This document shows positions 21,089-22,993 of a stretch of DNA of 64,000 bases, one piece after another. The stretch is from contig JAQWSQ010000065.1 in assembly GCA_029243145.1 (NCBI GenBank), positions 1-64,000 of the forward strand, in the 5' to 3' direction. The stretch comes from Planctomycetaceae bacterium (GTDB taxonomy: Bacteria > Planctomycetota > Planctomycetia > Planctomycetales > Planctomycetaceae). The number at the start of each line of letters is the position of its first letter. The first letter of the stretch is position 1. The notes beneath the pieces are model-generated. The model saw only the letters and a list, made by a program, of their open reading frames with translations. It did no database searches and had not been told where the DNA came from. The position numbers and the translations under genes were made by a program.

Positions 21089-22993
21089 ATGCCAGACTGG
21101 TCGTACCGGACCCTGTTTCGGCCTGCGCTGTTTCAACTCTCTCCTGAAACAGCCAGATCGATGGCCTTTGGTGTCATGGGACACTTGGGAAGATCGTGGT
21201 GGGGTCGGCATGTCATCGAATTCATGGGGCATTTTAAGCTCGAACCTCAGCTTGAGAGTCAACATTCCGGTTTGACGTTTGTTTCACCGGTCGGCTTAGG
21301 GTGTCGTCTCGATCCGCAATTGTCGGCTCATGAAGCTCTCGCCAAATTCGGAATTGGTTTCATCGAACTCGGCCCAGTAACCGCAGATCCCGTTCAGCCG
21401 ACCAAAATCGTCTTACATCGTGCCGATGAAGAGGTTGAATTCTCGCCGTGCATGGAACTGGTTTGCTTGGACTCAGCGCACAATTTATTGAAACGCCCAT
21501 TCGATGTTCCCGTGTTTGTACGAATCAGGGCCGATGATCCGACTGCTGACAAAGTGATCCATGAGCTTGCCGGGCAAGTCGAGGGATTCATTCTTGTGGG
21601 AGGGACCAATCAAGACTTGATCGACCTCGTCCAGCAACACAATCGCCAAGTCTTCTTACATCTCACACCAGAGACTTTCGAGTCATTCGTGGCATTGAAT
21701 GACACGAGTTCCATTGCTGGCTATGTTGTCGAGGGGGTTTGCGAATCAAACTGTGAATCACGACGCCTTGGCAAAAGCTCTTATCCTCAAACGCTCTCTC
21801 TGGTTGAAACAGTACGAAAAAAAGTTGGTGAAACGCCCACGATCATCGCGACGGGAGGCATCCACGAACCAGGTGATGGCTGGCAATTATTGCAATCGGG
21901 GGCCGATCTTGTTCTCGTCGATTCAGGGATGGTTTTTTCCGGTCCCGGCTTGCCGAAACGAATCAACGAAGCGGTTCTGTCTTATCGGGTCACGCCTGAG
22001 AAATGTTCTCGGACCGCTCGTGTTCGGCCCGCACAGATGTCCTGGTTCTGGACTCTGCTACTCGGCATCGGACTGTTCTGCGGAGGTGTCCTGGCCTTTT
22101 TGATTGCAATCACACGGGTTGTCCTGCCGTACGATGAGGCTCATAGCGGACTCACGAGAACCGATTTATTGGCCATCAACGACAAGCTTCTCGACTTCAT
22201 GCAGCACGATCGAGTCACTTTGGCGGCAACAATGCTGGGGCTGGGAGTCATCTATCTGACATTATCGTGGCAGGGAAGTCGAGGCGGTCACCACTGGGCT
22301 TATAAGGCCATTATTTCATCTGCTTTTGTCGGTTTTTTCTCTTTCTTTCTGTTTCTCGGGTTCGGCTATTTTGATCCGTTTCACGCTTTCGTCACGGCCA
22401 TCATGTTTCAGTTCCTCGCATTGGCCATGCACAGCGATTTGCCGACAATCAAACACCGACCGTTGCCCGAGTTGACCAACGATGCCGATTGGCAGCGTTC
22501 ACAGTGGGGACAACTTTTGATGGTTGTTCACGGTGCAACGCTGATTGTGGCAGGCTGCGTGATTTGTGGTTTCGGAGTGACGACCGTCTTTATCGAAGAC
22601 GATCTAAACTTCATGGAAACCAGCTACGACGAAATTTGCGTCGCCAATCCGATGTTATTGCCCTTGGTGGCACATGATCGCGCCACCTTCGGCGGGATGA
22701 CATTGTCGACCGGGCTCGCCGTATTGATGTCGGCATTGTGGGGATTCCGACGAGGACACCGCTGGCTCTGGAAAGCGTTGATGACGGGCGGCACCATCTG
22801 CTACGTGATGACATTATGGATTCACTGGAAGGTTGGCTATGTCAGTCAGCGACACATGATTCCCGTCTACCTGGGAATCGCCATGCTCTGGACGAGCGGC
22901 TGCCTCTCTTACAAACACCTTTGCACCGTCAACTATAAATCAGAGGAACAATCCGATAACGGACTGGAGACAACCACTGCCGACCCGGTATGA
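21089..22993 (+). CDS. Dihydroorotate-dehydrogenase-like domain fused to a duplicated membrane domain
   Basis: A 634-residue fusion. Residues 1-315 resemble class 2 dihydroorotate dehydrogenase: an N-terminal YRTLFRPALFQLSPETARSM segment, then GLGCRLDPQLSAHEALAKFG, a FIELGPVT strand, and a C-terminal flavin-phosphate-like IIATGGIHEPGDGWQLLQSG. The NxSSPN stretch with the catalytic Ser, and the lysine after the VT strand, are not recognisable, so it may not be a working PyrD. Residues 317-605 hold about eight membrane spans forming two similar halves: HDRVTLAATMLGLG and HDRATFGGMTLSTG occur about 156 residues apart, each followed by a G-H-W-x-K-A-like element. GGGAG lies seven bases before the ATG; a GTG nine codons upstream is less supported. 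Confidence 0.78.
   Translation: MPDWSYRTLFRPALFQLSPETARSMAFGVMGHLGRSWWGRHVIEFMGHFKLEPQLESQHSGLTFVSPVGLGCRLDPQLSAHEALAKFGIGFIELGPVTADPVQPTKIVLHRADEEVEFSPCMELVCLDSAHNLLKRPFDVPVFVRIRADDPTADKVIHELAGQVEGFILVGGTNQDLIDLVQQHNRQVFLHLTPETFESFVALNDTSSIAGYVVEGVCESNCESRRLGKSSYPQTLSLVETVRKKVGETPTIIATGGIHEPGDGWQLLQSGADLVLVDSGMVFSGPGLPKRINEAVLSYRVTPEKCSRTARVRPAQMSWFWTLLLGIGLFCGGVLAFLIAITRVVLPYDEAHSGLTRTDLLAINDKLLDFMQHDRVTLAATMLGLGVIYLTLSWQGSRGGHHWAYKAIISSAFVGFFSFFLFLGFGYFDPFHAFVTAIMFQFLALAMHSDLPTIKHRPLPELTNDADWQRSQWGQLLMVVHGATLIVAGCVICGFGVTTVFIEDDLNFMETSYDEICVANPMLLPLVAHDRATFGGMTLSTGLAVLMSALWGFRRGHRWLWKALMTGGTICYVMTLWIHWKVGYVSQRHMIPVYLGIAMLWTSGCLSYKHLCTVNYKSEEQSDNGLETTTADPV

Follow-up and report, generated by a model that had tools for sequence, protein, structure and literature searches.

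A predicted eight-span membrane protein family joined to a re-specialised, apparently inactive dihydroorotate dehydrogenase barrel

The closest described system is class 2 dihydroorotate dehydrogenase (DHODH), or PyrD (TIGR01036 / PF01180), in which the alpha1-alpha2 microdomain forms the membrane/quinone element. The fusion protein analysed here resembles class 2 PyrD in its N-terminal alpha1-alpha2 microdomain, in the order of its barrel and in its C-terminal phosphate-site region, but it is without the catalytic and FMN/orotate residues, its conservation is inverted, eight spans have been added, and its scores fall far below the cut-offs. Other related proteins are of three kinds. WP_233811857.1 of Cytobacillus spongiae is a full-length homologue with both halves present, differing in phylum. 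Eight-span units that stand alone in Planctomycetota (L011, L012 and L111 among them) have the same doubled unit and D..HDR..GY..H in each half, but they carry no barrel, form a nearly separate clade and have a desaturase-family neighbour at 7 of 17 loci. Single-unit four-span proteins of ∼150-175 aa (G058/L122, G441/L123 and G051/L124) share the span layout and an RRGxxWA loop, but as distant relatives they have one unit only and neither HDR nor GY..H. Our literature search for a DHODH pseudoenzyme, or for a DHODH fused to a membrane domain, found nothing relevant.

The gene lies in the window, by which we mean the whole 64,000-nucleotide stretch that was analysed, and encodes 634 residues. 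Its start codon is backed by the homologues, every one of which opens with [MV]PD[WY], and by GGGAG upstream; the minus strand across 21089-22993 contains many stops. The features of the gene are as follows:

21089..22993, + strand: whole gene, fusion of barrel and eight spans, 634 aa (open reading frame; full-length homologue alignments)
21089..21238, + strand: residues 1-50, alpha1-alpha2 N-terminal microdomain (start of NCBIfam class 2 model; conservation)
21239..21778, + strand: residues 51-230, apparent former DHODH catalytic core, with new conserved P96, R145 and E215/G216
21779..21988, + strand: residues 231-300, phosphate-site C-terminal end of the barrel, with GG256-257, SGxVFxGPGLxKRxN and D278 in place of Tyr318 (PF01180)
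22043..22444, + strand: residues 319-452, predicted membrane repeat 1, span centres 332, 385, 416 and 442
22205..22213, + strand: HDR motif 1, H373 D374 R375, on the same predicted face as D349 and H432 (≥95% conserved, 42 membrane halves)
22502..22918, + strand: residues 472-610, predicted membrane repeat 2, span centres 486, 541, 573 and 599
22673..22681, + strand: HDR motif 2, H529 D530 R531, on the same predicted face as D505, H579 and H589 (≥95% conserved, 42 membrane halves)

Homologues that are 89%, 71% and 48% identical occur in other genomes, which rules out an assembly artefact.

Judged by sequence, residues 1-300 descend from class 2 DHODH. NCBIfam models for quinone-dependent DHODH match roughly 100 residues at each end of the barrel half, the best score being 97.7 bits where the cut-off is 267; TIGR01036 scores 62.3 bits, below the cut-off of 200 for class 2 membership, and the PF01180 match is limited to residues 233-295. 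The alpha1-alpha2 microdomain is present, the NCBIfam class 2 alignment beginning at residue 4-8. A Foldseek search with a full-length AlphaFold model gave 50 listed matches, all of them DHODH, with poor superpositions and a mean pLDDT of 43.8, and counts as weak agreement only; both AlphaFold models were built from three close sequences only (mean pLDDT ∼43). The N-halves of the fusions split from four canonical enzymes with support of 99/97, on long branches and by a rough bootstrap.

We aligned the barrel halves of 33 fused homologues, taken from 33 genomes or records with the window protein counted in, with the PyrD of E. coli and with three class 2 PyrD from planctomycetes. Active-site positions are given in E. 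coli PyrD numbering, and the roles of the residues at these positions we take to be established for the E. coli enzyme. Lys66, Thr86 and Lys217 are retained in none of the 33 fusions, Asn111, Asn172, Ser175 and Asn177 in one each, and Asn246 in two; these counts are non-independent, several fusions being close relatives, and the mid-region of the fusions aligns poorly, so that single-position counts are approximate. Motif searches are independent of the alignment: NxS[SC]PN, NRMGFN and [IV]GKN are absent from all 33 fusions and present in 4/4 canonical PyrD controls. Other residues are conserved at the former active-site positions: Thr86 has become Pro in 31/33 fusions (P96 in the window protein), Asn139 has become Arg in 29/33 (R145), Thr245 has become Asp or Glu in 26/33 (E215), and Tyr318 has become Asp in 26/33 (D278). 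The phosphate-site pair Gly296-Gly297 is kept in 30/33 (G256-G257 in the window protein) and S/T319 in most.

A sequence-only reading of this DNA had seen the class 2 layout at both ends, had not recognised NxSSPN, and had proposed a degenerate flavin barrel of uncertain intactness. The two stretches matched by NCBIfam models, with PF01180 at 233-295, bear out the layout, and the motif search likewise finds no NxSSPN; the barrel is indeed degenerate, but the uncertainty has gone, with K66, T86 and K217 missing in 33/33 and new residues conserved. Because those three residues are lost from every fusion and a new residue set is conserved, we conclude that the barrel is most probably re-specialised and no longer a DHODH. 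Since the phosphate-site glycines remain, it may possibly still bind FMN or another phospho-ligand. The redox-linked role that the earlier reading suggested is a conjecture.

Conservation along the barrel appears inverted relative to canonical PyrD, with the hairpin best kept and the core drifting. Among 16 diverse fusions, mean pairwise identity is 52% in the alpha1-alpha2 hairpin and 14% in the core (the region of E. coli residues 91-250), versus 37% and 44%, respectively, in canonical PyrD (four sequences only). Selection was estimated as dN/dS by the Nei-Gojobori method for eight pairs, with saturated cases left out; some remaining dS values exceed 1.5 and are rough. The ratio is lowest in the hairpin (0.03-0.22) and the membrane half (0.04-0.19), reaches 0.08-0.27 in the barrel tail, and is 0.13-0.45 in the former catalytic core, ∼2-7 times that of the membrane half. 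These values, 0.03-0.45 overall, indicate that the gene is maintained and that the former active-site region, though relaxed, does not evolve neutrally; a neutral relic is rejected on the same values.

Residues 319-612 are predicted to form eight membrane spans in two four-span repeats. Hydropathy over the 42-row family alignment shows exactly eight maxima, four per half, and hhalign pairs repeat 1 with repeat 2 at Prob 99.7, E 7.5e-26 and a score of 150.8, while 20 column-shuffled controls score 17 or less with E no better than 0.05, and a reversed half scores 18. A chance likeness of the halves, for which the shuffled controls give E≥0.05, is thus rejected. The earlier proposals of about eight spans, of two similar four-span halves and of HDR at residues 373 and 529 (found at 373-375 and 529-531) all agree with these results. 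Each unit conserves a D - HDR - G - G[YF]..H pattern (14 halves). At a level of ≥95% in the 42-row alignment, the charged or histidine residues are D349, H373, D374, R375, D429, H432, D505, H529, D530, R531, H579 and H589; all 12 lie in or beside loops 1, 3, 5 and 7, none lies on the opposite face, and no charged residue is conserved at 95% in mid-span. The histidines are paired, H373 with H432 and H529 with H589 (plus H579), each at ≥95% and all on one face, within loops or at the ends of spans. Because the barrel is taken as cytoplasmic, the face that bears the His and Asp residues is predicted to be outside; the K+R counts per equal loop length (10.0 vs 6.1, a modest positive-inside bias) agree weakly.

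Profile searches found no Pfam, NCBIfam or PDB-sequence family over the membrane half, so the placement in a known family that would have spoken against the earlier reading did not come about. The best Pfam match is PF23778, at 21 bits against a cut-off of 32; NCBIfam gave no match to the membrane half of the window protein and a sub-threshold similarity to MerC in 2/20 members (E 0.01); the PDB profile search gave chance matches to RNA polymerase only. The membrane half therewith appears to be a family without an entry in Pfam or NCBIfam. Stand-alone homologues, which that reading had proposed to search for, do exist: the doubled unit occurs without the barrel, and there are in addition the three distant single-unit proteins. 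These match the membrane unit by hhalign with Prob 96 and E 1.6e-9 (three sequences; shuffled controls ∼0.1 or worse), and they are possibly an earlier version of the repeat.

Genome searches covered the window's own phylum, and plasmid and viral records were searched too. The 33 fused proteins comprise 31 from Planctomycetota, one from Cytobacillus and one from Mycobacterium, so that the same fused architecture is present in three bacterial phyla. The plasmid search gave relatives in Cytobacillus and Mycobacterium only, the viral contigs searched gave none, and a scan of genome contigs gave two close relatives only. At E 1e-4 or better the membrane unit is carried by 46 of 298 genomes of the class, nearly always as two consecutive copies. 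Among the rows with one copy, those that we inspected are an ORF at a contig end (G701), a truncated one (G447) and the distant G058 protein. Planctomycetota also have the membrane half on its own, without the barrel. A tree of 50 membrane halves, rooted by midpoint only and with Cytobacillus and Mycobacterium as long branches, resolves into one clade of fused and one of stand-alone proteins and requires two state changes: the fused planctomycete L028 is the sister lineage of the remaining stand-alone proteins, and the stand-alone L080 is nested in the fused clade. All fused N-halves, those of Cytobacillus and Mycobacterium branderi included, share the [MV]PD[WY] start. From the tree pattern and this shared start, the simplest history would be that the fusion arose once, long ago, and that the barrel was later lost at least twice. 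In M. branderi the barrel half is shortened to ∼195 aa, with most of the barrel lost and no Pfam match.

On either side of the window gene lie same-strand genes whose conservation stops at the genus. Judged by eye, the upstream one encodes a secreted protein with prenyltransferase-like repeats, the downstream one an oxidoreductase of the Gfo/Idh type. Across the fused loci no neighbour recurs and nothing is conserved beyond genus. A gene of the FA_desaturase family, weakly CrtR-like, directly adjoins the unit at 7 of 17 stand-alone loci, the seven coming from three genera (by group code) and two families, versus 0 of 24 fused loci, the window locus included. At these seven loci (L108, L109, L110, L111, L112, L114 and L118) the desaturase-family gene, weakly beta-carotene-hydroxylase-like, lies upstream or downstream of the unit, and the ORFs often overlap or nearly touch.

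Elsewhere in the genome there is a 319-aa class 1B PyrD with NISCPN present (386 bits against a cut-off of 269); this answers the question, raised from the sequence, of a second intact pyrD. Another PF01180 protein at 211-266 bits was found in 26/26 fusion genomes searched. The fusion protein is, in all likelihood, not the organism's PyrD. That it is a true DHODH with unusual catalytic residues seems to us highly improbable: the RefSeq name of the Cytobacillus protein is dihydroorotate dehydrogenase, but the catalytic motifs are all absent and a separate PyrD is present in 26/26 genomes. Identity as the real PyrD was rejected on these grounds, the missing active-site motifs and the PyrD found elsewhere in the genome. 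The Cytobacillus spongiae protein (L030:6110-7882, NZ_CP089998.1, WP_233811857.1) itself lacks the catalytic motifs, and its label 'dihydroorotate dehydrogenase' is a probable misannotation. At least one public record thus names a fusion with an apparently dead barrel as a pyrimidine enzyme, and such annotations could mislead metabolic models. The genome also holds a more distant second PF01180 protein (L003:874-2082, G000:C8), with NFSCPN and scores far under the PyrD and PreA cut-offs.

Beyond the anatomy of the protein, everything that we say about it we infer. The reading to which we lean, with a likelihood somewhat short of even, is a membrane core with a His/Asp site on its outer face, joined on the cytoplasmic side to a re-specialised barrel of class 2 DHODH origin that is catalytically dead; it draws on the descent of the barrel, the loss of its active site, its new residues, the duplication, the eight spans, the placement of conserved residues on one face, purifying selection, the separate PyrD and the stand-alone halves. 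The barrel would sit on the membrane via the retained alpha1-alpha2 microdomain, would hold a phosphate-bearing ligand at the retained glycine loops, and would regulate or feed the membrane unit, which in turn would bind metal or haem through its paired His/Asp sets and would act on lipids of the membrane or on quinone. We favour this chemistry, as a guess, because desaturase genes adjoin the stand-alone units and the membrane/quinone hairpin is kept; the desaturase link may not extend to the fusion, because no fused locus has such a neighbour. In its full form the proposal is possible but doubtful: an undescribed family of membrane metallo- or haemoproteins in which a doubled four-span unit bears a pseudo-symmetric pair of His/Asp sites for lipid or quinone chemistry and is controlled from the cytoplasm by an enzymatically dead DHODH barrel.

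Three other explanations must be weighed against it. The barrel could bind FMN or another flavin and pass electrons via a haem or metal in the membrane, as a redox enzyme with a new substrate: the phosphate-site GG and S/T319 are kept in most fusions, the quinone/membrane hairpin is the best-kept part, the invariant histidines are paired, and desaturase-type partners require electron donors. We regard this as unlikely, since the FMN-contact residues K66, T86, K217, N139 and Y318 are replaced almost throughout, the M. branderi form exists without most of the barrel and without a Pfam match, and the His and Asp residues lie on the face away from the barrel. A metal-ion or small-solute transporter or channel, with the barrel as cytosolic gate or sensor, also seems improbable to us; two-fold span repeats are common among carriers, and this one stands beside conserved Asp and His at one mouth and the weak MerC similarity, but the MerC matches fall well short of significance, charged residues conserved at 95% are absent from mid-span and from the other face, and transport-related neighbours do not recur. 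Quite unlikely, finally, is a ligand-free barrel left over from the fusion as a mere scaffold for membrane insertion or folding, with only the membrane half of importance: specific new residues are conserved across genera, dN/dS in the core is still 0.13-0.45, and one would not expect R145, P96 and D278 to persist in a pure relic, against which stand at least two losses of the barrel (the stand-alone clade and L080), its strong erosion in M. branderi, and a core dN/dS well above that of the membrane half.

If the barrel is the re-specialised cytoplasmic partner of a membrane core, the protein would show clearly how nature has made a membrane accessory domain out of an enzyme: the normally variable class 2 DHODH hairpin is now best kept while the core drifts. 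The fusion recurs, under selection, across three phyla, and the family of the membrane half offers near-symmetric invariant residues that are directly testable.

Several broken or partial forms were also observed. In two fused genes, L010 (G028:C56) and L079 (G689:C209), the reading frame is interrupted, either between the two halves or within one of them, by assembly error or a real frameshift. A stand-alone unit (L027/L056, G161:C1:4356789-4357700) in a one-contig genome has an in-frame TAG between the repeats, giving frames of 216 and 157 aa. On a Mycobacterium intracellulare plasmid, NZ_CP012886.2:409074-409256 matches the M. branderi fusion over residues 1-61 alone (69%), and this piece is likely a hairpin remnant.
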